IMG/VR virus record: IMGVR_UViG_3300000101_004790
Span: 1-34,705 of that record
From: a virus
DNA: 34,705 nt
Direction: 5' to 3' (one strand)
In this document: in pieces, positions 3,933 through 29,443 of the stretch
Layout of the letters: each line of letters begins with the position of its first letter
Numbering within the stretch: position 1 is the first letter of the stretch
Translations under genes and position numbers: made by a program
The notes under the pieces: generated by a model
What the model saw: only the letters and a program-made list of their open reading frames with translations
Told to the model about the DNA's origin: nothing
Databases searched by the model: none

Positions 3933-4490
3933 ATGCAAAGACCTGTTTATACACCAAAATTTAAAATAGAAACTGGATTTTATACTAAAGGTTTAGAATA
4001 TATGACTTTAGATAATAAAGAATATATAGGCGTATACCATAAATATCCTAACGGTGCAGTATATTCAGAAGCTATCTTTAATGATTATAGTATTGAACTA
4101 CAAGAGTATTCCATGGCAGTTGAATCAGAAAAACCTGGAATATATTTTGAGTTGACTGGTAAACGATTTAATAATTATATATCGCCGATATATTATTACC
4201 CAGATCTTAAAGATGCTGATTATAAATTAGCAAATTTTACAAGATATTTTGTTCAGCGTAAAAATAATTTATCTGAAATATTAGAGATAAATAAGGATTC
4301 ATATAAATCGATAAATGCCGCGAATAAAGTCGGTATAGATTCTGGATTATATAACAAAACATTGATTAAATGGTCAATCACCGGTCCTATAGATTCAGTA
4401 CGTGCTGCAAATCATCGAGTTATATTTAATTCAGATATATCAGACCTAGATTCTTATTTAACTGATTTAATAGAATTTTACAAGTATTAA
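3933..4490 (+). CDS. Hypothetical protein, end of baseplate operon
   Basis: A 185-residue soluble protein, not recognised. It is rich in Tyr, Asn and Ile with no membrane segment, Cys cluster or catalytic motif. It starts one base after the hub-like gene stop (TGATATG), so it is co-transcribed and probably virion-associated. The next 40 bases hold a strong promoter for the polymerase-like gene, so this appears to be the last gene of the tail block. Confidence 0.6.
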   Translation: MQRPVYTPKFKIETGFYTKGLEYMTLDNKEYIGVYHKYPNGAVYSEAIFNDYSIELQEYSMAVESEKPGIYFELTGKRFNNYISPIYYYPDLKDADYKLANFTRYFVQRKNNLSEILEINKDSYKSINAANKVGIDSGLYNKTLIKWSITGPIDSVRAANHRVIFNSDISDLDSYLTDLIEFYKY

Positions 4491-4492
4491 CA

Positions 4493-4523
4493 TTTGGTAG
4501 ATTGAAATATTTTTCTTATATTG
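4493..4523 (+). promoter_or_regulatory. Bacteroidota-type phage promoter 1
   Basis: TTTG at 4493-4496, 20 nt, then TATATTG at 4517-4523. The fuller shared pattern is TTTGGTAGA near -33 and TTTCTTATATT around -7. The same arrangement with identical spacing recurs upstream of five other genes. The predicted transcription start is at or very near the ATG at 4530, giving a leaderless or almost leaderless mRNA. Confidence 0.82.
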
Positions 4524-4529
4524 CTATAC

Positions 4530-5879
4530 ATGCAGATAATCGAAGATGAAATAGAGTTACAAAAAGTGTTAATGTCATTAAATGCCGGTGATTCATTCTG
4601 GATTCCAATTTACTCGGATCCATTCCAGCATTATATGAATAATCGTATTAGTTTTATATACATATATTCAATTGCAGATGATATTGATTATGTGTTACCT
4701 TTCCGTCATATGGACTGTATAAACCTCAATACCGAACGTTTACAGGACCTTACTAGTAGTCATGATATATATGTCTTAGCCAAGAAACGGTTCGCTCATT
4801 TCAATGCTAATAAATGTTATGATGCGGATATGGTCGCATGGTGGCAAACACATCGAATGTTACCATTAAATGAAACAAATACAGTTGCCCATGATGTTTG
4901 GAATCGGTGGTGGCATAATGAAACAAATACATATGACTGGTTACCAATAACATGTCATATAGATCGGTGTATTGCAATGCGTATAAAATTTATGGAATCA
5001 TATGCAACATTTGAAAAGACAGATAAATTTGAAGCATATGAACAAATGATTACAGATAATTTGTATGCAATAGAAAATTCTGGATTGCAAGTTGATTATA
5101 CAAAATTTTTAGAAAAGTTTAAATCAAATGGCATTCATAATCATAAAGCATATTCAGAATATAACATGTATACAACTACAGGCCGCCCATCTAATAAATT
5201 TGGAGGTGTAAATTATGCGGCATTGAATAAAGAGGATGGTTGCCGTGAATCATTTATAAGCCGTTGGGAAAGAGGCATGTTATTGGAAATGGACTTTGAT
5301 GCATATCATCCACGCTTAATAGCAGATATTATAGGATACAATTTACCAGAAGGATCCATTCATGAATATTTTGGTAAACAATATTTTGGAAAGGATGAAT
5401 TATCTGAATCAGAATATGAAGATTCTAAAAAAATCACATTTAGGTTATTATATGGAGGTATAGATAAAGACTTTGAAACAATACCATTTTTTGGTAAAGT
5501 TAAAGAATTTATAAAGGTGTTATGGTCTCAATTTAAAAAGAATGGCCATGTACTTACTCCATACTTTAAACGACCTTTATATGCCAATCATTTACATGAT
5601 ATGAATCCTAATAAATTGTTTAATTACTTATTACAGGCCTCGGAAACCGAAAATAACCTACATGTGATAAATGATGTTAATGCATTGATATCAGAATATA
5701 ACACAAAATTAATATTATATACATATGATTCATTGTTATTTGATTTTGATCTACGAGATGGTAAAGAATTAATGATAAAAATAAAAAATGTTATGTCACA
5801 AGCAGGTAAATATCCAGTTAAAATTAAAGCTGGCGTAAATTATCATGCCATGTCTGATATGACTTCTAAAATTGTTTAA
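4530..5879 (+). CDS. Family A DNA polymerase-like protein, exonuclease-less
   Basis: A 449-residue protein. The C-terminal half carries all polymerase A landmarks: a TTTGRPSNKFGGVNYAAL segment like the Pol I TGRLSS...PNLQN region; motif A with D255 (LLEMDFDAYHPR); motif B/O-helix with K300, F304, Y308 and G309; and motif C with D400 (YTYDSLLF). The two metal-binding Asp residues are kept, but Pol I E710 is replaced by H260, R754 by Y296, and the motif C His-Asp-Glu by Tyr-Asp-Ser. Motif A to C spans about 145 residues, against 177 in Klenow, so the fingers look short. No 3'-5' exonuclease motif is seen in the first 180 residues. ATG 4530 was preferred to TTG 4521, which lies inside the promoter -7 box. 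It is a second polymerase beside the family B enzyme at 17975. Confidence 0.82.
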   Translation: MQIIEDEIELQKVLMSLNAGDSFWIPIYSDPFQHYMNNRISFIYIYSIADDIDYVLPFRHMDCINLNTERLQDLTSSHDIYVLAKKRFAHFNANKCYDADMVAWWQTHRMLPLNETNTVAHDVWNRWWHNETNTYDWLPITCHIDRCIAMRIKFMESYATFEKTDKFEAYEQMITDNLYAIENSGLQVDYTKFLEKFKSNGIHNHKAYSEYNMYTTTGRPSNKFGGVNYAALNKEDGCRESFISRWERGMLLEMDFDAYHPRLIADIIGYNLPEGSIHEYFGKQYFGKDELSESEYEDSKKITFRLLYGGIDKDFETIPFFGKVKEFIKVLWSQFKKNGHVLTPYFKRPLYANHLHDMNPNKLFNYLLQASETENNLHVINDVNALISEYNTKLILYTYDSLLFDFDLRDGKELMIKIKNVMSQAGKYPVKIKAGVNYHAMSDMTSKIV

Positions 5880-5902
5880 TATTTATTTAAAAGAAAGTGT
5901 TT

Positions 5903-7129
5903 ATGAACAAAGAAAGCATTATACGCGAATGGTTTTACCGACTTCCTAATGGATATGCAACAGCACCTTATTCGGAAAAAGAAATGAACGTGCTACATGA
6001 AGTTCTAACAGAGAATGGAATAAATGGCTCGATATTTGTTAAAGAAGTAGATCAATTAGATCAGGCATTTCATGATGCTAAACCAATAGAAGATGAAGAA
6101 GCTGTTAATATAAGAGAAGCATTAGTTAAGATTGGTGATAAAAAATATCAATTAAATAAAGCTGAAATTGAAAAAATTACTGGATATCTTGAAAAGGATA
6201 TGAAGAAAAAAGATTTTAATCCAATGTCTAGACAAACAAAAACAGCATCGGGCAAATCATTACTTCCAAAAGCTAAGCGTAAAATTGGACAATTTGCTGA
6301 AGAAGATCATTGGCAACAGTGGTTAGACACAGTAGAAGGAATTATTCCAGATAACAAATTACAAAAACTATATTTTACATTATATGATATAACTTCAGCA
6401 ACATATACTGCTAAATATATAGATGAAGTTTTAGATGAACTTTATAGCGCAGATCCAAAATCATTAGCAAAATGGTTATTTAGTCTCGATAAAGTTCCTG
6501 TAGGTGGAGGTGAGATAGGATGGGATGTGCCAAAAGATTTTTATGGATTAGCAGATATAGGAACAGCTAGAGGAGGGTCAAAAGGTACTGAAATGGGTAG
6601 AGGTGAATATTTGATACCATTTTTGTTTGATCGTGGGGAATTGGGTGGAGCGAATGCAACTCATGATGTAGATATAAATGGTAAAGGTTGGCATGTTAAA
6701 GAATTAAAAAATAGAAACACATATATTAGATTAGGTAAAAATACCTTTGCAGGTTCTAATTTAGCAAAAGCATTAACGCCAACCGGTATATCAAAAACAG
6801 AATTTGCATTAACTGCGGTTTTCAAAGAAGGAACTACAGTTCCTGGTGTGATAGAAGCATTAAATACAGAATATGGTGGGGTTGAAAATGACTCTGATGC
6901 ATTAATGAAGATACAAGAAGAATTAGATAAAGAAATGAGAGCAGATGGTATAGCATTTGGAGATGGGCAAGGAGTGATATTTTATGTTCCAGCCGAACAA
7001 AAAGTATGGTTTGTATCAACAGAAGACTGTATATGTGGTGGTGGAACGCAAGGAGCCCATACAGTAGGAATGTCTCATTCGGGCCGGCCCGAAGGTAAAT
7101 TTGCTGCACAAGCTAGAAAGATAGGATAG
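5903..7129 (+). CDS. Hypothetical protein, possible divergent nuclease-like core
   Basis: A 408-residue protein of unknown function. The start ATG at 5903 follows an A/G-rich leader; a GTG at 5897 in frame is possible. Residues about 8-40 (EWFYRLPNGYATAPYSEKE, then a short helix) form a compact N-terminal module. Residues about 60-120 are charged and helical. The middle of the C-terminal half has GRGEYLIPFLFDRGE followed by THDVDINGKGWHVKELKN, which vaguely recalls a PD-(D/E)XK layout (Asp, then Val-Lys), but the position two before the Lys is His, not Asp/Glu. A Gly/Cys-rich loop with CICGGGTQG lies near the C-terminus. It sits between the polymerase A-like gene and small unknowns. Confidence 0.55.
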   Translation: MNKESIIREWFYRLPNGYATAPYSEKEMNVLHEVLTENGINGSIFVKEVDQLDQAFHDAKPIEDEEAVNIREALVKIGDKKYQLNKAEIEKITGYLEKDMKKKDFNPMSRQTKTASGKSLLPKAKRKIGQFAEEDHWQQWLDTVEGIIPDNKLQKLYFTLYDITSATYTAKYIDEVLDELYSADPKSLAKWLFSLDKVPVGGGEIGWDVPKDFYGLADIGTARGGSKGTEMGRGEYLIPFLFDRGELGGANATHDVDINGKGWHVKELKNRNTYIRLGKNTFAGSNLAKALTPTGISKTEFALTAVFKEGTTVPGVIEALNTEYGGVENDSDALMKIQEELDKEMRADGIAFGDGQGVIFYVPAEQKVWFVSTEDCICGGGTQGAHTVGMSHSGRPEGKFAAQARKIG

Positions 7130-7138
7130 GAAAATATT

Positions 7139-7525
7139 TTGAAAACACAACTATTATGCACATTTGCACATAAGAGAGATTTGGAGTTGGTAGCAGATTA
7201 TGTGTCAAAGTCATACATTATCTCAGAAAAGAGATTGTTTGTGTTTGAAGATGCAAATAGCAGAGCAGACTTATACGTAACTTATAACGTTGAACCAGAT
7301 GATTATGGTAAAACACCAAATACCATAATGATACATAGAAAAAAAGAAACTAACACATTATACACGGTAAATGCATTGAATGCAATTATTAGAAAAACAA
7401 ATAACGGTGTATTAGATAAAAAGTTTATTATCAATTGGCCAATATATGAAAATTCATTAATGTTAAATGATGGTAATGATGTGCGACATATACATTTAAA
7501 TTTATTCAAAAGAATCGATTTATAA
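7139..7525 (+). CDS. Conserved-looking hypothetical protein, TTG start
   Basis: A 128-residue soluble protein, function unknown. It begins with TTG at 7139 preceded by a purine-rich GATAGGAAAA; no in-frame ATG lies nearby, and the N-terminus MKTQLLCTFAHKRDLE looks natural. A central segment IMIHRKKETNTLYTVNALN is followed by a WPIYENSLML strand. From memory, proteins of this shape occur in marine T4-like phages without known role; that recollection is not a database result. It starts nine bases after the upstream stop. Confidence 0.6.
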   Translation: MKTQLLCTFAHKRDLELVADYVSKSYIISEKRLFVFEDANSRADLYVTYNVEPDDYGKTPNTIMIHRKKETNTLYTVNALNAIIRKTNNGVLDKKFIINWPIYENSLMLNDGNDVRHIHLNLFKRIDL

Positions 7526-8249: not shown

Positions 8250-8280
8250 TTTGGTAGAGTGAAATAAGTTTCTTATATTA
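8250..8280 (+). promoter_or_regulatory. Bacteroidota-type phage promoter 2 (gp32)
   Basis: TTTG at 8250-8253, 20 nt, TATATTA at 8274-8280, with the shared TTTGGTAGAGTGAAATA start and TTTCTTATATTA end. It drives the SSB gene after a leader of about 35 nt that is almost pure A/T with an AAAAAGGAAAAA ribosome-binding stretch. Confidence 0.85.
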
Positions 8281-8320: not shown

Positions 8321-9085
8321 ATGGCAATTAATTTAGACGCGATTAAGGCAAAACTTAATCAATTACAAACGACAGGCGCTCGCCGAGACAATCTATGGAA
8401 ACCAGAACCTGGTAAACAAGTAGTAAGAATTGTTCCTTATCAACATGATAGAAACAATCCATTCCAAGAACTTTATTTTCATTACAATTTAGGTAAGAAA
8501 AATTATCTATCTCCAGTGACTCATGGCAAACCAGATCCTGTAGTAGAATTTTGTGAAAAGCTCAAGGCATCTGGCAATTCAGATGAATGGAAGTTAGGTA
8601 AGCAAATGGAACCTAAAATGAGAACATATGTTCCGGTATTGGTTCGAGGTAAAGAGTCTGAAGGCGTAAAAATGTGGGGCTTTGGTAAAAATGTATATCA
8701 AGAGCTTCTAGGCTTCATTACAGACCCGGATTATGGTGATATTACCGATGTATCCGGTGGCCGTGATATTGTAGTTGAGTTTACTCCGGCAGAAGGTGCA
8801 GGCCAATATCCTAAAACATCGATCCGTGTTAAGCCTAATGTAACGGCTATGACAGAAGATCGTAATGTCGCAGAACGTGTTGCAAAAGAGCAACCAGATT
8901 TAGCAGTTATATTTAAAGAGCCATCATATGATGATCTTAAAGCTGCATTAGAAACATATCTGAATCCAGATGCAGTTGCATCAACAGAAACGGTTACACC
9001 CGCAAAAGCTCCAGAAGTAGCTCCAGCCGGCGTCAATAAAGTAGATGATGTATCTGCGGCATTTGACGAATTATTTAACGACTAA
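8321..9085 (+). CDS. Single-stranded DNA-binding protein, T4 gp32-like
   Basis: A 254-residue protein. It coats single-stranded DNA during replication and recombination. The core (residues about 25-190) has the gp32 pattern: LWKPEPGKQVVRIVPY, FQELYFHYNLG, MRTYVPVLVRG, VKMWGFGKNVYQELLG, then the DITDVSGGRDIVVEF segment. The C-terminus is Ala/Pro-rich and ends in an acidic tail (VDDVSAAFDELFND) of the kind that contacts partner proteins. The Cys-rich zinc motif of T4 gp32 is absent: the equivalent region has one His and one Cys only. It is first in an operon with UvsX and the exonuclease, behind its own promoter and an A/T-rich leader that could serve autoregulation. Confidence 0.85.
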   Translation: MAINLDAIKAKLNQLQTTGARRDNLWKPEPGKQVVRIVPYQHDRNNPFQELYFHYNLGKKNYLSPVTHGKPDPVVEFCEKLKASGNSDEWKLGKQMEPKMRTYVPVLVRGKESEGVKMWGFGKNVYQELLGFITDPDYGDITDVSGGRDIVVEFTPAEGAGQYPKTSIRVKPNVTAMTEDRNVAERVAKEQPDLAVIFKEPSYDDLKAALETYLNPDAVASTETVTPAKAPEVAPAGVNKVDDVSAAFDELFND

Positions 9086-9095
9086 AAGGTTATAA

Positions 9096-10241
9096 ATGGC
9101 AAAGTCAAAAACAAAAAGTGAGCTAGCGGATTCCCTGGCCGTAGAATTAGCTGATAGTCTTAATAAGAAATTTAAGAATACAGGATATCAAACTGCATTT
9201 TTCTTAGATGGTGATACAAAGGCTCCTAGTGAAGTGCGTGGCTGGGTAGGTAGTGGATCATCAATGCTCGATCTTGCAATTTCAAATCGTAAAGGTGGTG
9301 GTTTTCCAGTAGGAAGAATATCAGAAATTACAGGATTAGAAGCATCTGGTAAATCACTATTAGCAGCACATGCATTGGCAAATTGTCAAAAAGAAGGCGG
9401 CTTAGCGGTTTATATAGATACTGAAAATGCAATTAGTAGAGAGTTTCTAGAAGCAATTGGACTTGATCTCGAAAAGATGTTATATGTTCCATTGGAAACT
9501 ATTGAAGATATTTTTGAAGCAATTGAAAGTATAGTTGTAAAAATACGAGAATCTAATAAAGATCGTTTAGTTACAATTGTAGTAGATTCTGTAATGGGCG
9601 CTTCTACAAAAATTGAAATGGCAAAGGAATTTGATAAAGATGGTTATGCAACTAGTAAAGCCATTATATTATCAAAAGGTATGCGAAAGCTTACTAACAT
9701 GATAGGTCGCGAAAAGATTTGTTTAATATTTACAAATCAATTAAGAACTAGATTGGGAGTAGCATTTGGCGATCCTTATACTACCTCTGGTGGTAAAGCT
9801 ATTCCATTCCATGCCTCGGTACGGTTACGATTAAAATCGGTTGGTCAAATCAAAGTTAAGAAAGACGGGGTCGATCAGGCCATCGGAATCAAGACTAGAT
9901 GCCAAGTGGTTAAAAACAGAATGGGACCGCCATTAAAAACCGTTGATTATGATATCTATTTTGAATCAGGTATTGATAATTACGGTGGATGGCTTAACAT
10001 TATGAAGCAATTTAAGTTAGTGGCAACAGCAGGTGCATGGTATACATTTACTAGACCAGATGGTTCTGAAGTTAAATTTTTATCAAAAGATTTTGAAAAG
10101 AAGTTAGATGAACTTGATGGCCTTAAGGATGAAATATATACTCAAATTTGTGATGCGTATATACTTAAATATAAACCAGGCGAAGATTTTGGAATAGATG
10201 ATGTTACGATATCAGAAGAATTTGTTAACGAAGAAAGCTAA
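9096..10241 (+). CDS. uvsX: RecA-like recombinase UvsX
   Basis: A 381-residue ATPase that forms filaments on single-stranded DNA and drives strand exchange and recombination-dependent replication. Walker A is at residues 80-87 (GLEASGKS). The region KGGGFPVGRISEITG precedes it. A Walker B-like strand ends in VTIVVDSVMGAS, followed by the RecA-family NQLRTRLGVAFGDPYTTSGGKA segment. Length matches T4 UvsX (about 390). It follows the gp32-like gene by 10 bases and overlaps the exonuclease gene by one base (TAATG), consistent with joint expression. Confidence 0.92.
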   Translation: MAKSKTKSELADSLAVELADSLNKKFKNTGYQTAFFLDGDTKAPSEVRGWVGSGSSMLDLAISNRKGGGFPVGRISEITGLEASGKSLLAAHALANCQKEGGLAVYIDTENAISREFLEAIGLDLEKMLYVPLETIEDIFEAIESIVVKIRESNKDRLVTIVVDSVMGASTKIEMAKEFDKDGYATSKAIILSKGMRKLTNMIGREKICLIFTNQLRTRLGVAFGDPYTTSGGKAIPFHASVRLRLKSVGQIKVKKDGVDQAIGIKTRCQVVKNRMGPPLKTVDYDIYFESGIDNYGGWLNIMKQFKLVATAGAWYTFTRPDGSEVKFLSKDFEKKLDELDGLKDEIYTQICDAYILKYKPGEDFGIDDVTISEEFVNEES

Positions 10242-11290
10242 TGGATTCTAAATATCTTAACATACTACGAGAAATGGAAAAGGATCGTGAGCAAGGAACG
10301 GAGTCAAGTAAAGACAGCCATCTTTTAATTATTGACGGGTTGAATACATTCATTAGAGTGTTTTCAGCCGTTCCGGCTCTAAATGATGATGGACAACATA
10401 TTGGAGGGGTAACAGGCTTTTTAAGGTCTGTTGCTGCCAATATCCGTCAGTTAAAACCTACTAGATGTGTAATTGTATTTGATGGTAAAGGCGGATCTAA
10501 ACGGCGAAAAGCAATTTATCCAAATTATAAAGCCAACCGCGCAAATAAAACAGCATTTAATAGATATCAGGAATTTGCTTCATTAGAAGATGAATCAATG
10601 TCGATGAAAAAACAATTTGGTCGATTGGCACAATATCTTAATTGTTTACCAATTACTACATTATCGGTTGATAACGTCGAGGCAGATGATATAATGGCAT
10701 ATATTGCCAATGAGTTATACACAGAAAAAGAAAACCGAGCAACTATTGTATCAACGGATAGAGATTTTTTACAATTAGTAAACGATCGTATTTCAGTATG
10801 GAGTCCTATAAAAAAGAAGTTATATACTCCAAGTCTAATGAAAGAAGAATTTGGATTTAGTCCTGAAAATTACTTGTTGTACAGAACGTTTATTGGTGAT
10901 AAATCAGATAATATCCCCGGCATTAAAGGTGTAGGTCCAAAAAGTTTGATTAAACATTTTCCTATAATATGTGAAGATAGAGAGATAACAGTTGATGAAA
11001 TAGTCGAATATGCAGATAATGTTGATAAGAAATATAAAGTTCATGAAACTGTATTACAGAATAAAGAAACTTTACAACTAAATTATGACCTTATGCAATT
11101 GAAAGAAGTTGATATACACGGTGGTGCAAAAATGTTAACTCTAGATAAAGTTAAAGGTAAAGTTGATCGCACAAATACATATGAGTTCAAAAAAATGTTT
11201 ATGGCAGATAAAATGTATACAGTAATAAAGGATTTAGATTCCTGGTTACATACTTCATTCAATGCATTAAATGCTTACACTTCTCTTTGA
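10241..11290 (+). CDS. 5'-3' exonuclease / RNase H, FEN family
   Basis: A 349-residue flap endonuclease/5'-3' exonuclease that removes RNA primers and flaps, as T4 RNase H does. Metal-site acidic residues are visible: D32 in LIIDGLN, Asp in VIVFDGKGG, E147/D149/D150 in VEADDI, the STDRDF motif, and D220/D223 in GDKSDNIPGIKG. The helix-hairpin-helix GIKGVGPKS follows. A RRKAIYPNYKANR arch segment is also present. Translationally coupled to uvsX by TAATG. It ends just before a promoter for the helicase. Confidence 0.9.
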   Translation: MDSKYLNILREMEKDREQGTESSKDSHLLIIDGLNTFIRVFSAVPALNDDGQHIGGVTGFLRSVAANIRQLKPTRCVIVFDGKGGSKRRKAIYPNYKANRANKTAFNRYQEFASLEDESMSMKKQFGRLAQYLNCLPITTLSVDNVEADDIMAYIANELYTEKENRATIVSTDRDFLQLVNDRISVWSPIKKKLYTPSLMKEEFGFSPENYLLYRTFIGDKSDNIPGIKGVGPKSLIKHFPIICEDREITVDEIVEYADNVDKKYKVHETVLQNKETLQLNYDLMQLKEVDIHGGAKMLTLDKVKGKVDRTNTYEFKKMFMADKMYTVIKDLDSWLHTSFNALNAYTSL

Positions 11291-11319: not shown

Positions 11320-12675
11320 ATGACAGATAGATTAAGTTCATACGGATATGCCTTTCAGATAAAAGTTATAACTGCTTTATTAACTGATAAAAGCTTCTTA
11401 CAGCAGATATCAGATATAATGGTTCCAAAATATTTTGAATCAGAAGCCAATAACTGGATAGTCGACATAATCCTTGAATACCATAAAGAATATAAATCTT
11501 CGCCTACATTAGAAGTAATGAAAGTGAAGATGGAAGATTTGGATCAAGAAGTGCTCAAAACTTCAGTAATTCAACATCTTAAGGATGCATGGCGATATAC
11601 CGATGCGCCAGATTTAGAATATATCAAAGACCAAGCTTTAGATTTTTGTAAAAACCAAGAAATTAAAAAAGCAATTTTATCATCGGTAGAATTGCTTAAA
11701 CATGGTAAGTATGAAGAAATAAAGGCCGCGGTAGATGATGCATTAAAATCCGGAGGAGATAAGGATATTGGTCATGAATATATGACTAATATTGAAGAGC
11801 GTTATAGCGAAGCAGTGCGCCATGTACAAGAAACCCCATGGGAAGTAATTAACGAATTAACAGATGGTGGTATAGGTAAAGGTGAACTAGGAGTTATGGT
11901 AGCACCAGCTGGTATTGGTAAGTCTTGGGCATTAATGAATGTAGGTGCTAATTTAGTTAAGAAAGGAAAGACGGTTGTACATTATACATTAGAATTAAAT
12001 GAGGCATATGTAGGATTGCGGTATGATTCTGTTATAACAGGTATAGCTCAACAAAACTTGAAACATTATATGGATGAAGTTAAAGAGCAGTTATCTAAAA
12101 TAGATGGTGAATTAATTATTAAACATTATCCTACAAAATCTGTATCTGTAATGGGTATACGTTCTCATATTGAAAAATGTATAATGCAGGATAAGAAACC
12201 AGATATGGTCATTGTTGATTATGCAGATTTGTTGAGAGGCCATGGCCAAGAAAAACGACATGAGTTGGAAGGTATATATGAAGATTTGAGAGGTATGGCA
12301 GGAGAATATGAAATTCCAGTATGGACAGCATCTCAAGCAAATAGATCAGCCTTAGAAGAAGATGTAATTGATGCTAGTAAAGTTTCTGAATCATATGGTA
12401 AGGTAATGGTTGCAGATTTCATATTATCATTATCTAGAAAAGTTCAGGATAAATTAGCAGGAACTGGTCGTTGGCATGTCATTAAAAATAGATTTGGACC
12501 AGATGGTATAACATTACCTAGTAAGATGAATACATCAAATGGCCAATTTGATATATATACAGATACATCTATACAAGGAAAAGATACTCAAAAGGCAATG
12601 GATAATGGTAATGAATTAGCAAGGCAAATGCTAGCCAGAAAATACAATGAAACCCAAAATACTGGTTTTGAATAA
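11320..12675 (+). CDS. Replicative DNA helicase, DnaB/T4 gp41-like
   Basis: A 451-residue hexameric helicase that unwinds DNA ahead of the fork. The N-terminal helical domain (about 1-150) is followed by the RecA-fold motor. Walker A is at about 195-202 (APAGIGKS), then the DnaB-type GKTVVHYTLELNE strand, Walker B with MVIVDYADLL, and WTASQANRSA with the sensor Gln. KNRFGPDG near the end is the arginine-finger region. Length is close to T4 gp41 (475). A predicted leaderless start is suggested by the promoter position. It is the last gene before the RNR leader region. Confidence 0.92.
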   Translation: MTDRLSSYGYAFQIKVITALLTDKSFLQQISDIMVPKYFESEANNWIVDIILEYHKEYKSSPTLEVMKVKMEDLDQEVLKTSVIQHLKDAWRYTDAPDLEYIKDQALDFCKNQEIKKAILSSVELLKHGKYEEIKAAVDDALKSGGDKDIGHEYMTNIEERYSEAVRHVQETPWEVINELTDGGIGKGELGVMVAPAGIGKSWALMNVGANLVKKGKTVVHYTLELNEAYVGLRYDSVITGIAQQNLKHYMDEVKEQLSKIDGELIIKHYPTKSVSVMGIRSHIEKCIMQDKKPDMVIVDYADLLRGHGQEKRHELEGIYEDLRGMAGEYEIPVWTASQANRSALEEDVIDASKVSESYGKVMVADFILSLSRKVQDKLAGTGRWHVIKNRFGPDGITLPSKMNTSNGQFDIYTDTSIQGKDTQKAMDNGNELARQMLARKYNETQNTGFE

Positions 12676-14714: not shown

Positions 14715-14746
14715 TTTGGTAGAGTCAAATATATTTCTTATATTTA
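14715..14746 (+). promoter_or_regulatory. Bacteroidota-type phage promoter 3 (que/folE operon)
   Basis: TTTG at 14715-14718, 20 nt, TATATTTA at 14739-14746, with the full TTTGGTAGA and TTTCTTATATTTA context. It is the only promoter visible before the run of ten closely packed genes from 14769 to 20725, which includes QueD, QueE, GroES, FolE, the phosphoribosyltransferase and DNA polymerase. Confidence 0.85.
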
Positions 14747-14955: not shown

Positions 14956-15252
14956 ATGGAAAATTTTAAATTTAAAGATGTCGAAATGACATTTGATTAT
15001 CGTAAATTAGCTTACTATGATCAAGAGTATTTACGAACAATGGCATTTGAAACAGTTAATGATCGATCGGTAAAATTCAGTGGCCTTGTATTTACAGATT
15101 ATTATCCATATGCGGATAACTTTACTATGTTTACAAGTGAAACGGAATTATTAAATTATATGGCTGATTTTGCAGGTCATATTGCTAAAACAGCATCTCA
15201 TTTATTACATGGTAAAAAGTATTGGATGGCATGGACATATTCAAAGGAATAG
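14956..15252 (+). CDS. Hypothetical protein upstream of QueD
   Basis: A 98-residue aromatic-rich protein (many Tyr and Phe), not recognised. No membrane segment. It lies four bases after the preceding small gene and one base before the QueD start, so it belongs to the deazaguanine operon; whether it takes part in the pathway cannot be told from sequence. Confidence 0.55.
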   Translation: MENFKFKDVEMTFDYRKLAYYDQEYLRTMAFETVNDRSVKFSGLVFTDYYPYADNFTMFTSETELLNYMADFAGHIAKTASHLLHGKKYWMAWTYSKE

Positions 15253-15253
15253 T

Positions 15254-15718
15254 ATGAGTAAATATCAATCAACAAAATTATTTGATGGATTTAGTTGCTG
15301 TTTTAGACAATGGAAAGCAGAAACTACTCATTGTAGATTTTTACATGGATATGGAGTATCATTCCGAGTTACTTTTGAAGGTGATCTAGATGAACGTAAC
15401 TGGGTTTGGGATTTTGGTGGCATGAAACGAGCCAAAACATTAATAGATGGTATGCAACCAAAAGCATGGATGGATTATATGTTTGACCATACTGTAATTG
15501 TAGCAGAAGATGATCCTGAATTGATGAAGTTTGAAAATTTACATAGAAGAGGTGTTATTCAATTAAGGCATGTAAAAGCTACAGGTGCAGAAAAATTCGC
15601 AGAATTTATATTTCATAAATTAAATAAATTTGTAACAGAAGAAACTAATAGTCGTGTAAAAATAGTTCAAGTAGAATTTATGGAACACGGTAAAAATACA
15701 GCAATATATACGGAATAA
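15254..15718 (+). CDS. queD: QueD-like 6-carboxytetrahydropterin synthase
   Basis: A 154-residue member of the 6-pyruvoyl-tetrahydropterin synthase family, which converts dihydroneopterin triphosphate to 6-carboxytetrahydropterin, step two of 7-deazaguanine synthesis. ATG 15254 was chosen because the in-frame extension to 15170 overlaps the upstream gene and is not QueD-like. Catalytic C27 (THCRFLHGYG), the DH pair in MFDHTVIVAEDD and the Glu near the end (VEFMEHG) are kept. Two of the three classical zinc His residues are replaced: the His in the FxAAHR motif by F17, and the second His of HGH by Y33; H31 remains. Extra Cys residues at 15 and 16 and H26 might substitute. Next to QueE and close to FolE, which supports the role. 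Confidence 0.82.
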   Translation: MSKYQSTKLFDGFSCCFRQWKAETTHCRFLHGYGVSFRVTFEGDLDERNWVWDFGGMKRAKTLIDGMQPKAWMDYMFDHTVIVAEDDPELMKFENLHRRGVIQLRHVKATGAEKFAEFIFHKLNKFVTEETNSRVKIVQVEFMEHGKNTAIYTE

Positions 15719-15721
15719 GTT

Positions 15722-16495
15722 ATGAATAAACGAATAAAAGATTATGATAAGGTACTCCCTATCAATGAATTGTACAGATGTGTGCAATCTGAAGGAAGTC
15801 GATTTGGTAGACCAACTATTGCGATACGAGTAACTGGTTGTACTCATCGATGTTATTTTGGTGAAGGAGGTTGGTGCGATTCATGGTATTCATCTATACA
15901 TCCAGAAAAAGGTAAGTATTCATTTAATGATATTGTTAAAATATATGATGATAATCCTCATGTAAAAGAAATGATGTTAACTGGTGGATCTCCGACAATG
16001 CAGCCAGCATTAGTAAACGAGTTAACACATTTTGCGCATGAAAGAGGCATTATTATTACTATCGAAACTGAAGGATCTCATTTTATTGAAACCGATTATC
16101 CTATTGATCTTATTAGCCTTAGTCCTAAGTTCTCTAATTCCATTCCTGTTATTGGGGCTGTTACTCCTGGTGGTCAAGTTGTTGACCAAAAATTTATAGA
16201 CGTCCATAATAGGAAACGTTTAAATACAGATGCAATACGTCAAATGATATTATTCCATGACGATTATCATTACAAGCCTGTGTGGGATGGTACTACGGAT
16301 GGCCTTAAAGAAATTGAAGAATATCGTATAGAATTAGGCATTCCGAAAAATAAAACATATATTATGCCGGCGGGTGATACGCGAGAACAATTAATTAAAA
16401 TGTATCCGATGGTATTTGAATTATGTGCCGAACATGGTTATAACATGACAGGTAGAGATCATATCATAGCATTTGATACAGAAAGAGCAGTCTAA
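15722..16495 (+). CDS. queE: QueE-like 7-carboxy-7-deazaguanine synthase (radical SAM)
   Basis: A 257-residue radical SAM enzyme that contracts 6-carboxytetrahydropterin to 7-carboxy-7-deazaguanine. The opening YRCVQSEGSRFGRPTIAIRV matches QueE, which starts with a Gln-Ser/Gly-Glu-Gly substrate segment. The cluster cysteines are C40, C44 and C52, a CX3CX7C spacing instead of the usual CX3CX2C, because a Gly-rich insert (FGEGGW) precedes the third Cys. The SAM-binding MMLTGGSPTMQ and the ETEGS strand follow. It lies three bases after queD. Length is typical of the family (about 220-260). Confidence 0.88.
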   Translation: MNKRIKDYDKVLPINELYRCVQSEGSRFGRPTIAIRVTGCTHRCYFGEGGWCDSWYSSIHPEKGKYSFNDIVKIYDDNPHVKEMMLTGGSPTMQPALVNELTHFAHERGIIITIETEGSHFIETDYPIDLISLSPKFSNSIPVIGAVTPGGQVVDQKFIDVHNRKRLNTDAIRQMILFHDDYHYKPVWDGTTDGLKEIEEYRIELGIPKNKTYIMPAGDTREQLIKMYPMVFELCAEHGYNMTGRDHIIAFDTERAV

Positions 16496-16506
16496 AAGGA
16501 AATTAT

Positions 16507-16809
16507 ATGAAAATGAAACCAATGGGAGATTTTGTACTCCTGAAAACTCATGAAGGTCAAGAAACGACCAAAGCAGGTATTATTTTAACTAGTAATACTA
16601 CAAATCATGTTAAAGCAGATGTGATAGCTGTAGGACCTGGATTATTTACACAAACGGGTGACCGCATTCCAATTACAGTGACAGTAGGTGATACGGTCAT
16701 GGTAACTAATCAATCTGCTAAGCCACATAATCAAATCAAATTAGAAGAAGATACATATGTACTTCTCAGAGAATCAGAAATAGTAATGGTATCAATAAAA
16801 GAGGTTTAA
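16507..16809 (+). CDS. groES: Co-chaperonin GroES
   Basis: A 100-residue co-chaperonin that caps the GroEL ring. The N-terminus KMKPMGDFVLLK, the mobile loop at residues about 15-34 with the GroEL-binding tripeptide IIL at 25-27, and the ADVIAVGPGL strand are diagnostic; VGDTVMVTNQS corresponds to the roof-side domain. Length is close to host GroES (97) and less than T4 gp31 (111). It sits inside the queE-folE gene run, about 9.2 kb from the phage GroEL at 26001, so the two chaperonin genes have separate promoters. An AAAAGGAAA ribosome-binding stretch precedes the ATG. Confidence 0.9.
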   Translation: MKMKPMGDFVLLKTHEGQETTKAGIILTSNTTNHVKADVIAVGPGLFTQTGDRIPITVTVGDTVMVTNQSAKPHNQIKLEEDTYVLLRESEIVMVSIKEV

Positions 16810-17469
16810 ATGAAAGACTCGGTAAATTTAGAACTAGTAAAGGCAGGTTTTGCAAACGGTGTAGCAAAAACCCGGCCCTTGACAGAGAGTGAAAAACAGA
16901 TAATGATTCAAACTGCGGCTTTTGCCTTTGGAGATTTTTTGGATGCATTGCAATGTGATTGGCGTAATGATCCAAATTCGGATAATACACCAACGCGTGT
17001 AGCAAAGGCATATGTTAATGACTTATGGGCAGGTAGGTATGAGGCTCCACCATCGATAACAGCATTTCCTAGTGATGGATATGATGGCATAGTATTCGAA
17101 GGTGGCATTCCTTTAACGTCTATGTGTTCACATCACCATCAAACTATAATGGGTAAAGTCCATGTTGCATATATTCCAGGTAAAGATAGCAAAGTAATTG
17201 GTCTTTCCAAATTGAATAGGCTGGTGGAACATTTTGCTCGAAGAGGTGCGATACAAGAGCAATTAACAGTTGCAATACATAATGCAATAACGCAGATTAT
17301 TGCTGATAATAATGGTGTAGCAGTAATGATAGAAGCTACTCATAATTGTGTGCAATGTCGTGGAGTGAAGCATGGCGGTGCTAGTATGAAAACTAGTAAA
17401 TTAACTGGTGCATTTAAAGATGATGCAGCGACTAGAAATGAATATTACGAATTTGCTAAAGGATATTAA
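16810..17469 (+). CDS. folE: GTP cyclohydrolase I (FolE)
   Basis: A 219-residue enzyme converting GTP to 7,8-dihydroneopterin triphosphate, the first step towards 7-deazaguanine bases (and folate). The zinc ligands are present: C106 and H109 in MCSHHH, and C180 in HNCVQCRGV. The PTRVAKAYVNDLWAG helix, the KVIGLSKLNRLVEHFARR segment and QEQLT follow the family exactly. Length equals the E. coli enzyme (222). Its ATG directly follows the groES stop, and its stop overlaps the phosphoribosyltransferase start (TAATG). Confidence 0.95.
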   Translation: MKDSVNLELVKAGFANGVAKTRPLTESEKQIMIQTAAFAFGDFLDALQCDWRNDPNSDNTPTRVAKAYVNDLWAGRYEAPPSITAFPSDGYDGIVFEGGIPLTSMCSHHHQTIMGKVHVAYIPGKDSKVIGLSKLNRLVEHFARRGAIQEQLTVAIHNAITQIIADNNGVAVMIEATHNCVQCRGVKHGGASMKTSKLTGAFKDDAATRNEYYEFAKGY

Positions 17470-17975
17470 TGGAAATTTTAATACCAGAATATAAAATAGA
17501 ACGGCGTGTAAGAGCTTTAGCTCATGCAATATCAGAAGAGCATAAAGCTTCTGGTAATTCATATCCACCAGTGATGATTTGTGTATTAAATGGTGGTTAT
17601 GCATTTTTTGCAGACCTAATGAAAGATATGGGTATTGATGTACAAATGGATTTTGTTCGAGCCAAGTCATATGAAGGTCAAGACAACTCCGGAGGGGTTA
17701 AGATTACCAAAGATTTGGAAATTCATTGTAAAGGTAAACGTGTTTATATCATTGATGATATAGTAGATACCGGAGCAACTATGATGGAGATATTAAGACG
17801 AGTTGATGATATGACGCCTGATGAAGTTAAAGTAGTTACATTACTTAAACGTAAAGAAGATAGTCCACCAGTAGATCATTATTGTTTTGAAATTGATAAG
17901 GAATGGGTAGTAGGTTATGGATTAGATGATAATTCATTGAAAAGAAATTATAGAAACATATATAAGATTAACTAA
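17469..17975 (+). CDS. hpt: Hypoxanthine/guanine phosphoribosyltransferase-like
   Basis: A 168-residue type I phosphoribosyltransferase. The PRPP-binding motif is at about 92-105 (VYIIDDIVDTGATM, with D96/D97), and the N-terminal PVMICVLNGGYAFFADL supplies the LNGG loop. The C-terminal HYCFEIDKEWVVGYGLD segment matches bacterial Hpt (Val/Asp purine-binding region). It would turn hypoxanthine or guanine plus PRPP into IMP or GMP. It is coupled by TAATG to folE upstream and to DNA polymerase downstream. In this setting it may recycle guanine released by base exchange or supply GTP to FolE; use of a deazaguanine base is also conceivable. These roles are inference. Confidence 0.85.
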   Translation: MEILIPEYKIERRVRALAHAISEEHKASGNSYPPVMICVLNGGYAFFADLMKDMGIDVQMDFVRAKSYEGQDNSGGVKITKDLEIHCKGKRVYIIDDIVDTGATMMEILRRVDDMTPDEVKVVTLLKRKEDSPPVDHYCFEIDKEWVVGYGLDDNSLKRNYRNIYKIN

Positions 17976-20455
17976 TGTATCAAGCAGTTGCATATCATAA
18001 ACGTACTAATAAAGTACATATCTGGGATGATAAGAATGGTCATTTCACTATTAATTACAAGCCATATGCTTATCGTAAAGCTACGTATGGAAATATGGTG
18101 GCATTAGATGGCCAAACTGTACAACGTGTAGAAAATCCTGATCGCGAAGAACGTGGATTATACGAAGCAGATATCAATCCGGAAATGCGTACTTTAATCG
18201 ATACATATACAGATTCGGACGAAGTATCGGTAGGCCATAGAACATTGTTTATTGATATTGAGGTAGATATCGCATCTGGATTTCCTACTCCGGAAGAAGC
18301 TCAAAATGAAGTTACTTCCATTGCAATATATGACGAAGCAGGTGATCAAAGACATGTATGGATATTAGATAAAGATAATGTAGTTGAAAACGTATCTAAA
18401 CCAGGATATGAAGTAGTATCATGTAATAATGAGCATACTTTATTACAAAAATTCTTATACAAATATTATGAGATACAGCCTACCATTATAACCGGATGGA
18501 ATATTGATTTCTTTGATATACCATATCTTTATAATCGTATGGTACAAATATTAGGCGAAGAACAGGCTAGATCATTATCTCCTATCAAAGATGTCATTTG
18601 GTTAAAACATAGAAACAGATATCGTATATCCGGAGTATCATGTTTAGATTATATGGCATTATATAAGAACTTTACATATTCTCAAGAGTCAAGTTATTCA
18701 TTGGAAGCTATATCTCAGAAAGAATTAGGTAAAGGTAAAATGAAGTATGAAGGTACATTAGATGACCTCATGCGTAATGATATTCAAGGTTATATTGATT
18801 ATAACATGAATGATGTGGATCTGGTTTGGGAAATTGATCAAAAAATGAAGCTGATTGATTTGGCTCGTGGTATATGTCATAAAGGGCATGTTCCTTACGA
18901 AGACTTCTTATTTCCAACTAGATACTTAGATGGTGCTGCATTAACATATATGAAGCGTATGAACATTGTATCTCCTAGCCGTCCGCCTAGGTCTAATGAA
19001 GAATTAAATTTATTAGGAGCATATGTCAAGCCACCAAATGCTGGTCGTTATAAATGGGTATATGACCTTGATTTAACATCATTATATCCTAGTATCATCA
19101 TGACACTTAATATATCACCAGAAACCAAAGTAACTAAGTTAGAAAAATTTGATCCTAAGGCATATGTTAAGAATACCGGGACTCATTATTCAGATGAATG
19201 GAACGGTTGGGAAACATCTCAAGACTTAAGAAAATATCTAGAATCAAATAAATATTCAATAGCAGCAAATGGAGTCGTATATGATACTCAGATAAAAGGA
19301 TTCCTGCCATCTATCCTGGATAAATGGTTTAATGAGCGTGTTGAATATAAAAACTTAAGAAAGAAGTATGAAAAGGAAGGAGATGAAGCTAAAGCAGAAT
19401 ATTTTGATAGGATGCAGTTAGTGACTAAGATTCTTCTTAACTCATTCTACGGAGTACTAGGTAACCCTAGCTTCCGGTTCTTTGATCCAGATAATGCAAT
19501 TGCAATTACAAGTACTGGTCAGCAATTAATTAAGTTCACTGCCGATATTGGTAACCAGTTTTACTTTAAAGAGTTAGGAAAAAAGAAAGATTATAATATA
19601 TACATTGATACAGATTCTGTATTCTTTTCATCATTACCATTAATAGAAAAACGGTATCCTGATTATGATATTACAGATGAGAAGTTTATGTCTGATAAGA
19701 CAATTGAAATAGCGGACGAAGTTCAAGGCTTTATGAATAAATCATATGATATATATGGTAAGAAATTTCATAATGTTGATACTCATAGATTTGATATCAA
19801 GAAAGAAAATGTGGCTAAAGCAGGATTATGGATTGCTAAGAAGCGTTATGCTCAATGGATAATTAATGTGGAAGGCCATACTGTATCAAAACTAGACGTG
19901 AAAGGTTTGGATGTGGTACGATCATCCTTTCCACCTTCATTTAGAAAGTTCATGGCAGAGGTATTAGAGGACATGTTAAATGACATTGATAAACCAGAAT
20001 TGGATCAGAAGATATTAGATTTTAAAGAACATATGAAGACATTGGAACTGATAGATGTCATGTTCCCAATTGGAGTTAAAAATGTTAAAAAATATATACG
20101 TAAAGGTGATAAGCCATTTGCGGTCCGTATGAAAGGTACTCCGGTCCATGTTAAGTCTGCGCTAAATTATAATGACATGTTAAAGCATCATAAAATTAAA
20201 ACTATACGTGGCATTATAAATGGAGAAAAGATTAAATGGACATACCTTAAAAATAATTCAATGGGATTAGATACTATAGCATTAAAAGGATATGATGATC
20301 CAAAAGTAATTGCAGACTTTGTACAAGGCCATATAGATTATGATAAAGTATTTAAATCAGCATTTGCAAATAAGTTAAACGATTTTTATAGTGCTATGAA
20401 TTGGGGATTGATCCCAGAAAATAATAATTTAGGAAAGTTTTTTGCATTCGGCTAA
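17975..20455 (+). CDS. Replicative DNA polymerase, family B (T4 gp43-like)
   Basis: An 826-residue polymerase with proofreading. Exonuclease residues: D94/E96 (LFIDIEVDI), D178 (GWNIDFFDIPYLYNR) and D280 (YNMNDVDLV). Polymerase motif A is DLDLTSLYPSI with D366; motif B is KILLNSFYGVLGNP; motif C is YIDTDSVFF with D545 and D547. The C-terminal NLGKFFAFG resembles the clamp-binding tail of T4-like polymerases. Slightly shorter than T4 gp43 (898). No intein or split is seen. Coupled by TAATG to the phosphoribosyltransferase gene. Confidence 0.95.
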   Translation: MYQAVAYHKRTNKVHIWDDKNGHFTINYKPYAYRKATYGNMVALDGQTVQRVENPDREERGLYEADINPEMRTLIDTYTDSDEVSVGHRTLFIDIEVDIASGFPTPEEAQNEVTSIAIYDEAGDQRHVWILDKDNVVENVSKPGYEVVSCNNEHTLLQKFLYKYYEIQPTIITGWNIDFFDIPYLYNRMVQILGEEQARSLSPIKDVIWLKHRNRYRISGVSCLDYMALYKNFTYSQESSYSLEAISQKELGKGKMKYEGTLDDLMRNDIQGYIDYNMNDVDLVWEIDQKMKLIDLARGICHKGHVPYEDFLFPTRYLDGAALTYMKRMNIVSPSRPPRSNEELNLLGAYVKPPNAGRYKWVYDLDLTSLYPSIIMTLNISPETKVTKLEKFDPKAYVKNTGTHYSDEWNGWETSQDLRKYLESNKYSIAANGVVYDTQIKGFLPSILDKWFNERVEYKNLRKKYEKEGDEAKAEYFDRMQLVTKILLNSFYGVLGNPSFRFFDPDNAIAITSTGQQLIKFTADIGNQFYFKELGKKKDYNIYIDTDSVFFSSLPLIEKRYPDYDITDEKFMSDKTIEIADEVQGFMNKSYDIYGKKFHNVDTHRFDIKKENVAKAGLWIAKKRYAQWIINVEGHTVSKLDVKGLDVVRSSFPPSFRKFMAEVLEDMLNDIDKPELDQKILDFKEHMKTLELIDVMFPIGVKNVKKYIRKGDKPFAVRMKGTPVHVKSALNYNDMLKHHKIKTIRGIINGEKIKWTYLKNNSMGLDTIALKGYDDPKVIADFVQGHIDYDKVFKSAFANKLNDFYSAMNWGLIPENNNLGKFFAFG

Positions 20456-20741: not shown

Positions 20742-20773
20742 TTTGGTTGTTTGCAAAAACTTTCTTATATTAA
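20742..20773 (+). promoter_or_regulatory. Bacteroidota-type phage promoter 4 (GT-dpdA-clamp operon)
   Basis: TTTG at 20742-20745, 20 nt, TATATTAA at 20766-20773. The -33 side reads TTTGGTTGTTTGCAAAA, a variant shared with promoter 6 (TTTGCAAAA), and the -7 side is the common TTTCTTATATT. It heads a run of seven genes to 25941. Confidence 0.82.
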
Positions 20774-24772: not shown

Positions 24773-25702
24773 ATGTTTGGAAATCAAGAAAATACATTAT
24801 GGGTGGAAAAGTTCCGTCCAGGTACATTAGAAGGATATGTAGGTAATGAACATATCATAGACAAAGTTAAATTATATTTAGAAAATGGCGATGTGCCACA
24901 TCTATTATTTTATGGACAAGCAGGTACTGGTAAGACTACGCTTGCAAAGATTATAGCAAATGGATTAGATGCTGATATCATGTATATCAATGCTTCGGAT
25001 GAAAACAATGTGGATACTGTGCGTACTAAGATAAAGAATTATGCAAGTACTATTGGATTTAAAAAATGGAAGATTGTTATATTAGATGAGGCAGATTATA
25101 TGACTCCTAATGGCCAAGCTGCATTACGTAATCTAATGGAAACATTTTCTAAAACTACTAGATTTATACTAACATGTAATTATGTTGAAAAGATTATTGA
25201 TCCTATACAATCTAGATGCCAAGTATTTGGTATTACGCCTCCTAACAAAAAGGAAGTTGCTAAACGTATAGTTGAAATCCTTAATGAATTACAAGTTAAA
25301 TATGATAACAAAGACCTAGTTACTATTATAAACGCCGGCTATCCTGATATAAGGAGGGTGTTAAATGGCTGTCAAAGACAGGTTATAGATAATGAACTAA
25401 AAATTGATGCGACTAGTGTTATACAAGCAAATTATATGACCAAGTTGTTAGATCTTTTAAAATCTAGTTCTGATAAGAAAACAGCATTTAAAGATATTAG
25501 ACAATTGATAGCAGATAGCAAAGTAAAAGACTTTACAGCTTTGCATAAATACCTGTTTGATGAATTAGACAATTACGCAACTGGTCATATAGCCAGTATC
25601 ATATTAATATTAGCTGAATCGCAATATCAAGATTCATTTGCAGTTGATAAAGAATTGCATATCATGTCTACAATTGTAAAAATGTTAAATGAATTAAAAT
25701 AA
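24773..25702 (+). CDS. Clamp loader large subunit, T4 gp44/RFC-like AAA+ ATPase
   Basis: A 309-residue AAA+ ATPase that loads the sliding clamp. The N-terminal WVEKFRPGTLEGYVGNE is the RFC box; Walker A is at 48-55 (GQAGTGKT), Walker B at 102-108 (VILDEADYM with D105, E106), sensor 1 in FILTCN, and the SRC motif at 147-149. Length is near T4 gp44 (319). It follows dUTPase and is coupled (TAATG) to a small unknown gene. The partner gp62-like subunit lies 1.9 kb downstream, beyond groEL. Confidence 0.93.
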   Translation: MFGNQENTLWVEKFRPGTLEGYVGNEHIIDKVKLYLENGDVPHLLFYGQAGTGKTTLAKIIANGLDADIMYINASDENNVDTVRTKIKNYASTIGFKKWKIVILDEADYMTPNGQAALRNLMETFSKTTRFILTCNYVEKIIDPIQSRCQVFGITPPNKKEVAKRIVEILNELQVKYDNKDLVTIINAGYPDIRRVLNGCQRQVIDNELKIDATSVIQANYMTKLLDLLKSSSDKKTAFKDIRQLIADSKVKDFTALHKYLFDELDNYATGHIASIILILAESQYQDSFAVDKELHIMSTIVKMLNELK

Positions 25703-25941: not shown

Positions 25942-25973
25942 TTTGGTAGAACGAAATATTTTTCTTATATTTA
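25942..25973 (+). promoter_or_regulatory. Bacteroidota-type phage promoter 5 (groEL)
   Basis: TTTG at 25942-25945, 20 nt, TATATTTA at 25966-25973, in the full TTTGGTAGA/TTTCTTATATTTA context. It begins at the base after the previous stop codon. It drives groEL after a leader of about 25 nt ending AAAAAAATAAGAATATATT before ATG 26001. Confidence 0.86.
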
Positions 25974-25991: not shown

Positions 25992-27626
<1,635 letters not shown>

Positions 27627-28471: not shown

Positions 28472-28503
28472 TTTGGTACTTTGCAAAATATTTCTTATAT
28501 TTA
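28472..28503 (+). promoter_or_regulatory. Bacteroidota-type phage promoter 6 (nuclease), leaderless
   Basis: TTTG at 28472-28475, 20 nt, TATATTTA at 28496-28503. The -33 side, TTTGGTACTTTGCAAAA, resembles promoter 4. The ATG at 28508 begins 12 bases after the first T of the -7 box, so transcription should start at or within a base or two of the start codon. Confidence 0.84.
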
Positions 28504-28507
28504 ATAT

Positions 28508-29443
28508 ATGAATAAATTTTTAAAATACGGAGCGCGAGAGCCTGTACCAGGAGAGCGTAGAATATCATATTCACAATATGGAATGTATGAAACATGTCCT
28601 AAACATTGGGAATTGGCGTATGCAAAAGGATTGCGTACATTTAGTCAAAGTATACATACTATATTTGGTACTGCTATGCATGAAACATTGCAGCATTACT
28701 TAACTGTAATGTACGAAAAGACAGTTAAGGATGCAGATGCAATTGATTTAAATGCATTATTAAAGCAACATATGTATGACCTATATAAAGAAGCTGTTTC
28801 AAAAATGGATGATCATTTTTCTACTAAATTTGAAATGAATGAGTTTTATGATGACGGTGTTGCAATTATTGACTGGTTTAAGAAAAAGCGCGGAGCATAC
28901 TTTAGTCGTAAGAATGAAGAATTAATAGGTATTGAAGTTAAAATATATCATCCTGTTGATGAGGATAATAAACATGTTATGATGTTAGGTTATCTAGATA
29001 TTGTAATACGAGATAAACGTGATGGTAAAATAACTATCATTGATCTTAAGACTAGTACCATGGGATGGAACAAATATCAGAAAGCTGATAAGATAAAGAC
29101 ATCTCAATTAGTATTATATAAAAAATACTTTGCAGAACAGTATGGGTATGATGTAGAAAAGATTGATATCAAGTATATGATTCTTAAACGCAAATTAATT
29201 GATGGTGCAATGTTTCCTCAAAAACGTGTTACAGAATTCATGCCAGCAAGTGGTAAGCCAACTAGAAATAAATTAGCTCGTTCTATAAAAGGTTTTGTAG
29301 AATCTAGTTTTGATAGCGAAGGTAATTATAATTTGAATAAAGAATATCCTGCAATGGCAGGTAAAAATAAAAAGAATTGCAAGTATTGTGAATTCAAAGA
29401 TCGTGAAGATCTATGTCCAATGTCAAATAGAATAAAAGGTTAA
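28508..29443 (+). CDS. Cas4/RecB-like PD-(D/E)XK exonuclease with Fe-S cysteines
   Basis: A 311-residue nuclease of the PD-(D/E)XK superfamily. H58 (TAMHETL), D164 (GYLDIVI) and D179-x-K181 (IIDLKTS) are the metal and catalytic residues. C30 (YETCPKHW) with C291, C294 and C303 near the end (NCKYCEFKD...LCP) form the four-Cys iron-sulfur cluster pattern of Cas4 and AddB-type nucleases. SQLVLYKKYFAEQYG after the active site is the QxxxY motif. Such proteins degrade DNA ends; in a phage this may serve recombination or host DNA breakdown. No cas gene or CRISPR is near. It has its own promoter and predicted leaderless start. Confidence 0.88.
   Translation: MNKFLKYGAREPVPGERRISYSQYGMYETCPKHWELAYAKGLRTFSQSIHTIFGTAMHETLQHYLTVMYEKTVKDADAIDLNALLKQHMYDLYKEAVSKMDDHFSTKFEMNEFYDDGVAIIDWFKKKRGAYFSRKNEELIGIEVKIYHPVDEDNKHVMMLGYLDIVIRDKRDGKITIIDLKTSTMGWNKYQKADKIKTSQLVLYKKYFAEQYGYDVEKIDIKYMILKRKLIDGAMFPQKRVTEFMPASGKPTRNKLARSIKGFVESSFDSEGNYNLNKEYPAMAGKNKKNCKYCEFKDREDLCPMSNRIKG

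Follow-up and report, generated by a model that had tools for sequence, protein, structure and literature searches.

We identified a small family A DNA polymerase, here called PolA-s, in a 34,705-nucleotide stretch of viral DNA (IMG/VR record IMGVR_UViG_3300000101_004790, positions 1 to 34,705; this whole stretch is referred to as the window) which also encodes a family B replicase (PolB). PolA-s is likely to be an accessory polymerase without proofreading that works beside the phage replicase, and its task is probably gap filling or the copying of damaged DNA, not replication of the whole genome. This accessory role is supported by an intact two-metal core, lost exonuclease carboxylates, the changes E710H, R754Y and H881Y (Pol I numbering), strict linkage, retention of PolA-s with either a family B or a family A replicase, and a promoter motif common to the gene for the single-stranded DNA-binding protein (SSB) and other DNA-metabolism genes.

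4530..5879, plus strand: PolA-s, small family A DNA polymerase of 449 amino acids (Pfam, hhalign, AlphaFold, PDB fold matches, IMG/VR relatives)

The open reading frame of PolA-s is intact, with an ATG at 4530, a stop codon at 5877-5879 and 449 codons. The protein matched the Pfam domain DNA_pol_A (PF00476) with 36.4 bits (cut-off 34.3, E 3.9e-9), and the same domain was matched by 18 of 21 relatives with an E-value of 0.1 or better. An hhalign comparison with 11 PolA reference sequences gave a probability of 97.9 and an E-value of 4.7e-13 over residues 180-432. A phmmer search of the PDB with the single protein yielded no real match and a profile was needed; the profile of the 21 relatives identified Pol I structures (best E 9.5e-7). 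No match was found in PHROGs with the window protein, and nine of the 21 relatives matched phrog_17. The AlphaFold model (pLDDT 90.5, pTM 0.88) has the palm, fingers and thumb fold, as also indicated by a Foldseek search in which the best 50 PDB matches were all family A polymerases; Pol nu had the lowest E-value (2.5e-18), and Klenow reached a TMq of up to 0.78. A divergent family A polymerase at this position, together with fold prediction and a search against family A as ways to check it, had been proposed in a preliminary description of the window, and the reading frame, Pfam, hhalign and the fold agree with it. PolA-s is a family A member by profile, fold and catalytic aspartates, in which the E710 and RxxxK signatures were not found, and is best read as a new family A subfamily that is divergent and does not proofread. 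It evolves under purifying selection, with pairwise dN/dS values of 0.13-0.26 (Nei-Gojobori method, with some dS values near saturation).

Relatives of PolA-s in other phages, which the preliminary description had suggested looking for, are numerous. In a tblastn search PolA-s was detected in six of 50,697 phage records, consisting of four entries of Flavobacterium phage immuto, Microcystis phage Mel-JY01 (complete, 190 kb) and the 484-kb record LR756508; T4 and the cyanophages with a related PolB were not among these six. One scan of IMG/VR revealed at least 218 relatives, and in a second scan relatives were present in 578 of the 600 stretches examined. The carriers are T4-like viruses that infect aquatic bacteria, a large group of which most members are uncultivated. 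A search of genome contigs also gave two loci on short contigs of marine metagenome-assembled genomes (L084 and L085), assigned to an archaeon (Nitrosopelagicus) and to Flammeovirgaceae; these are probably misbinned phage DNA. In a phylogenetic tree the small polymerases form one group apart from the 11 references; the tree is unrooted with long branches and therefore does not tell which PolA is nearest. Gene 1 of immuto (QQO91919.1, deposited as DNA polymerase family A) and WWT39333.1 of Mel-JY01 (deposited as hypothetical protein) are orthologues of PolA-s in the same gene order, 28-35% identical to the window protein, and their annotations have no word on the residue changes or the accessory position. 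In the papers searched, no account of this second polymerase was found.

4530..5009, plus strand: N-terminal domain of PolA-s, residues 1-160, probable vestigial 3'-5' exonuclease fold (model, TMq, local match, motifs)

PolA-s had been described as lacking the exonuclease. The catalytic carboxylates are indeed gone, but the domain is not simply absent, as a remnant of its fold appears to remain in the model: residues 1-160 show the strand and helix order of an exonuclease domain, and residues 36-63 locally match strands two and three of the Klenow exonuclease, a match which is not significant by itself. An hhalign comparison of the N-terminal domain alone with Klenow was not significant either, so that the exonuclease remnant is deduced from the model and the whole-length fold match; residues 180-449 represent 60% of the chain, and a TMq of 0.78 therefore requires that the N-terminal domain is superposed too. 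Neither the DxE motif nor the exoII NxxxD motif of proofreading exonucleases was found in PolA-s, and the catalytic carboxylates D355, E357, D424 and D501 are missing. Since the domain could not be aligned significantly by profile, residues were paired by hand, which placed P26 and Y28 at the positions of D355 and E357 and made non-catalytic exonuclease features (PxxH, the exoII Lys and a later Asp) recognisable as H60, K86 and D98. H34 is invariant where present. The exonuclease domain of PolA-s thus appears to be degenerate in the modelled structure, with a fold remnant left and catalysis lost.

The lost carboxylates would suit a dedicated translesion polymerase, acting for example on sunlight damage and resembling Pol nu and Pol theta with their dead exonuclease. 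Human Pol nu being the best PDB fold match by E-value points in the same direction, and the shortened fingers described below could open the active site. We nevertheless regard such a specialist as rather unlikely, since Klenow and the Bacillus fragment match about equally well and with higher TM-scores, no lesion-bypass loop was found in PolA-s, and its fast divergence suits many roles.

The active site was analyzed by counting residue conservation over 154 aligned PolA-s sequences, with Pol I numbering taken from the 11 references. Three motifs were located by alignment.

5292..5309, plus strand: motif A, DFDAYH (D255-H260); catalytic Asp kept, His at the E710 position in all 154 sequences
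5415..5456, plus strand: O-helix, Y296-xxx-K300-xxx-F304-xxx-Y308-G309; RxxxK changed to YxxxK
5724..5732, plus strand: motif C, Y399-D400-S401 (H881-D882-E883 in Pol I)

In this alignment R682, D705, E710, H734, R754 and K758 of Pol I correspond to R239, D255, H260, H278, Y296 and K300 of PolA-s, F762, Y766, N845 and Q849 to F304, Y308, N365 and Q369, and H881, D882 and E883 to Y399, D400 and S401. The catalytic aspartates D255 and D400 (D705 and D882) are present in 154/154 sequences, and H260, K300, Y308, Q369 and Y399 likewise show no variation; the positions of R682, F762, N845 and Q849 are nearly or fully invariant, with Phe or Trp at F762. The steric-gate residue E710, which is Glu in 11/11 references, is not kept, and H881, His in 11/11 references, is Tyr in every PolA-s. 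At the R754 position Tyr is found in 142 of the 154 sequences, including the window protein, and Arg in the remaining 12. His occupies position 278 in 135 of the 154 sequences and Glu in 18, and position 401 (E883) has Ser or Ala. Relative to the PolA references, PolA-s lacks about 16 residues following the O-helix (hhalign). The earlier reading that both catalytic Asp residues and the O-helix Lys, Phe and Tyr are kept (K300, F304, Y308), that E710 is changed to His and R754 to Tyr, and that the fingers are shortened is borne out by these data. As the RxxxK signature is variable, YxxxK speaks against typical membership of family A and not against descent from it.

E710 and R754 are important for Pol I catalysis, so that PolA-s could be slow or use another substrate. 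Going by these residues, the combination of E710H with R754Y in most members might even represent a new nucleotide-selection chemistry, such as the use of ribonucleotides or modified nucleotides or a different triphosphate-binding mode, and with it a new functional class in recombination-dependent phage replication; we consider this joint reading unlikely.

PolA-s could alternatively be an RNA or mixed-primer polymerase, similar to TV-Pol or T7 RNA polymerase, that uses ribonucleotides since the E710 gate is lost. The invariant His and the YDS motif C would agree with this, as would the fact that the PolA-like TV-Pols are predicted primase-polymerases (PMC2579912). A bulky His could nevertheless serve as a gate, which is the role of Tyr at the corresponding position in family B, and the Phe or Trp at F762 is retained. 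Moreover, a DnaG-type primase is encoded in immuto, Mel-JY01 and LR756508 (all three genomes from outside IMG/VR) and in several large contigs, and no linkage to a D5 helicase or resolvase was seen at PolA-s loci. Taken together, an RNA or mixed-primer polymerase is improbable. That PolA-s is a PolA-derived scaffold without catalytic activity is equally doubtful: the changes at the usually conserved E710, R754, H881 and E883 would agree with it, but D705, K758, Y766 and D882 are invariant and the other core positions nearly or fully so, and Ser at the E883 position is also found in the T5 sequence aligned here and in the polymerase of phage Tt72 (PMC9324360).

The genes surrounding PolA-s in the window are the following.

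3933..4490, plus strand: p185, conserved upstream neighbour, in 135 PolA-s-bearing loci
5897..7129, plus strand: p410, variable neighbour in the slot of varying length between PolA-s and p128
7139..7525, plus strand: p128, conserved neighbour of 128 amino acids between PolA-s and SSB
8321..9085, plus strand: SSB (phrog_1192, synteny)
9096..10241, plus strand: UvsX-like recombinase (2.5e-68)
10241..11290, plus strand: Pol I-type 5'-3' exonuclease (PF02739 and PF01367)
11320..12675, plus strand: DnaB-like replicative helicase

The order p97 (baseplate wedge), p621, p185, PolA-s, a variable slot, p128, SSB, UvsX, 5' nuclease and DnaB recurs in contigs from marine and freshwater sources as well as in isolate or assembled genomes. 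PolA-s thus directly precedes the SSB-UvsX-nuclease-helicase block, whereas the preliminary description had placed it away from the replication genes; of that description as a whole, the second, divergent polymerase stands, and the remote position and the absent exonuclease do not. The variable slot measures from 0 to about 6 kb across relatives and seems to carry differing genes. The Pol I-type 5' nuclease was present in 23 of 24 related records, and p128 in exactly the same six of the 50,697 phage records as PolA-s. Among loci collected with p128 as the seed, PolA-s lay upstream in 51; it was missing from no locus that extended over 5 kb upstream, and 20 were too short to tell. The structural model of p128 (pLDDT 91) gave no informative relative in a fold search. 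Distance matrices of PolA-s correlated with those of UvsX, DnaB, SSB, the nuclease and p128 with r values of 0.905-0.937 (61 loci), against a permutation maximum of 0.15; for UvsX, DnaB, SSB and the nuclease the values were 0.92-0.94, with a permutation maximum of about 0.13. Synteny and distance correlation together indicate that PolA-s is a core gene of the lineage and is passed on vertically along with the recombination-replication block, although the linkage could mirror vertical inheritance of the whole block and not joint function.

A promoter-like motif is located directly in front of the gene.

4494..4522, plus strand: TTGGTA-N17-TATATT, promoter-like, ending 7 nt before the ATG of PolA-s

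This pattern, which was derived from two of the copies themselves, occurs six times in the window (4494-4522, 8251-8279, 14716-14744, 20743-20771, 25943-25971 and 28473-28501) compared to 0.32 expected, and none of 100 shuffles reached six. The common core is TTTCTTATATT. The copies precede PolA-s, SSB, the deazaguanine region, a small open reading frame, GroEL and a PD-(D/E)XK nuclease, and the motif is kept upstream of PolA-s in many close relatives, in line with the earlier suggestion that the polymerase has its own promoter. At 4530 and 28508 the motif ends 6-7 nt ahead of the ATG, which suggests that the mRNAs of PolA-s and of the gene at 28508 may be leaderless. The GroEL is phage-encoded (26001-27626; phrog_5725, 6.7e-167), and a ribonucleotide reductase at 12804-14660 matches the B12-dependent insertion domain.

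Further replication genes are located downstream in the window.

17975..20455, plus strand: PolB, family B replicase with exonuclease (DIE, DLTSLYPS, NSFYG and DTDS intact)
24773..25702, plus strand: clamp loader ATPase (2e-81)

The intact exonuclease and polymerase motifs of PolB confirm the family B replicase recognised earlier beside PolA-s. PolB was found in 22 of 34 records examined. No replicase was found in 11 of the 34, all of which are 78 kb or shorter, and this was attributed to truncation; two contigs (G007 and G008) end short of where Mel-JY01 has PolB. Immuto carries a full-length PolA of 777 amino acids (gene 71) instead of PolB, after its deazaguanine genes. The site of the replicase exchange is at 16855-19188 of locus L165 (immuto 37854-40187), with PolA in the position that PolB holds in the window and in Mel-JY01. 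Another full-length polymerase was present in all 11 records larger than 80 kb (PolB in ten, PolA in immuto), and in none of them is PolA-s the only or main polymerase. PolA-s was thus retained when the replicase was swapped, which points to a task of its own. An ATP-dependent DNA ligase was detected by PF01068 in only one of 23 of these phages, indicating that most do not encode the full set for Okazaki fragment maturation. In LR756508.1 the PolB matches, at 260623-262308 and 266583-266900, are spread over two distinct open frames of 1022 and 625 amino acids, and the replicase of this phage may therefore be split.

The window also encodes a 7-deazaguanine pathway at 15170-17469, consisting of QueD, a radical SAM protein (QueE-like) and GTP cyclohydrolase I. 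A link of PolA-s to modified bases had been suggested, and QueD, QueE and FolE genes are indeed found in the window and in immuto; a polymerase specialised for 7-deazaguanine DNA is nonetheless very improbable, because Mel-JY01, LR756508 and contig G009 (which has both polymerases) all keep PolA-s and have no QueD-type gene.

The anatomy of PolA-s points to a polymerase without proofreading, and its neighbours to work on single-stranded DNA or recombination intermediates; since a separate replicase, primase and helicase are present, PolA-s is none of these. Repair or translesion work, as put forward earlier, is plausible, whereas nothing observed points to the terminal filling proposed with it. 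We propose that PolA-s would synthesize short patches on intermediates that are coated with SSB or made by UvsX. Together with the neighbouring 5' nuclease it would in effect make up a Pol I divided between two genes, filling gaps that stem from primers, excision or recombination, and it might tolerate lesions or mismatches because it cannot proofread. As to the individual task, gap filling or repair synthesis is a serious candidate, though short of probable, lesion bypass is possible with less confidence, and other accessory roles account for the remainder.

TV-Pols are a family of small (400-600 amino acids) PolA-like polymerases of mobile elements (Iyer, Abhiman and Aravind 2008, PMC2579912). 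PolA-s resembles them in the template-contact/beta-hairpin Arg and two Asp residues, its R219, D255 and D400 being invariant. The TV-Pol fingers carry RxxxK, whereas the window protein has YxxxK, and PolA-s differs further by its exonuclease-like N-terminal domain. TV-Pols are linked to a D5-like helicase or resolvase without conserved nuclease linkage, PolA-s to DnaB, UvsX, SSB and a 5' nuclease. Membership of PolA-s in the TV-Pol family was rejected on the basis of YxxxK and the different gene linkage.

Pol nu and Pol theta, which are best or near-best fold matches, have a degenerate exonuclease domain as PolA-s does, and PolA-s is shorter than both. Pol nu and Pol theta retain RxxxK and the motif A and C signatures and carry lineage-specific inserts. 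Like bacterial Pol I (Klenow, Bacillus fragment), PolA-s has thumb, palm and fingers and a TGR motif, shares D705, K758, F762, Y766, N845, Q849 and D882, and combines an exonuclease-like N-terminal fold with a Pol I-type 5' nuclease encoded nearby. It differs from Pol I in its low identity (about 15-19%), in E710H, R754Y, H881Y and E883S/A, in the lost exonuclease carboxylates and post-O-helix residues, and in having the 5' nuclease as a separate gene. PolA-s therefore offers natural variants at the best-studied active-site positions of Pol I (E710, R754, H881), and may also be of practical use, as it is small and exonuclease-free.

The textbook picture of a replisome with a single polymerase is that of the T4-type phages. 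In the large aquatic lineage of such phages described here, a second polymerase of another family is a core component, kept even where the replicase changed between families B and A, with p128 as an uncharacterised partner protein that always accompanies it. The division of labour between phage polymerases thereby becomes testable.
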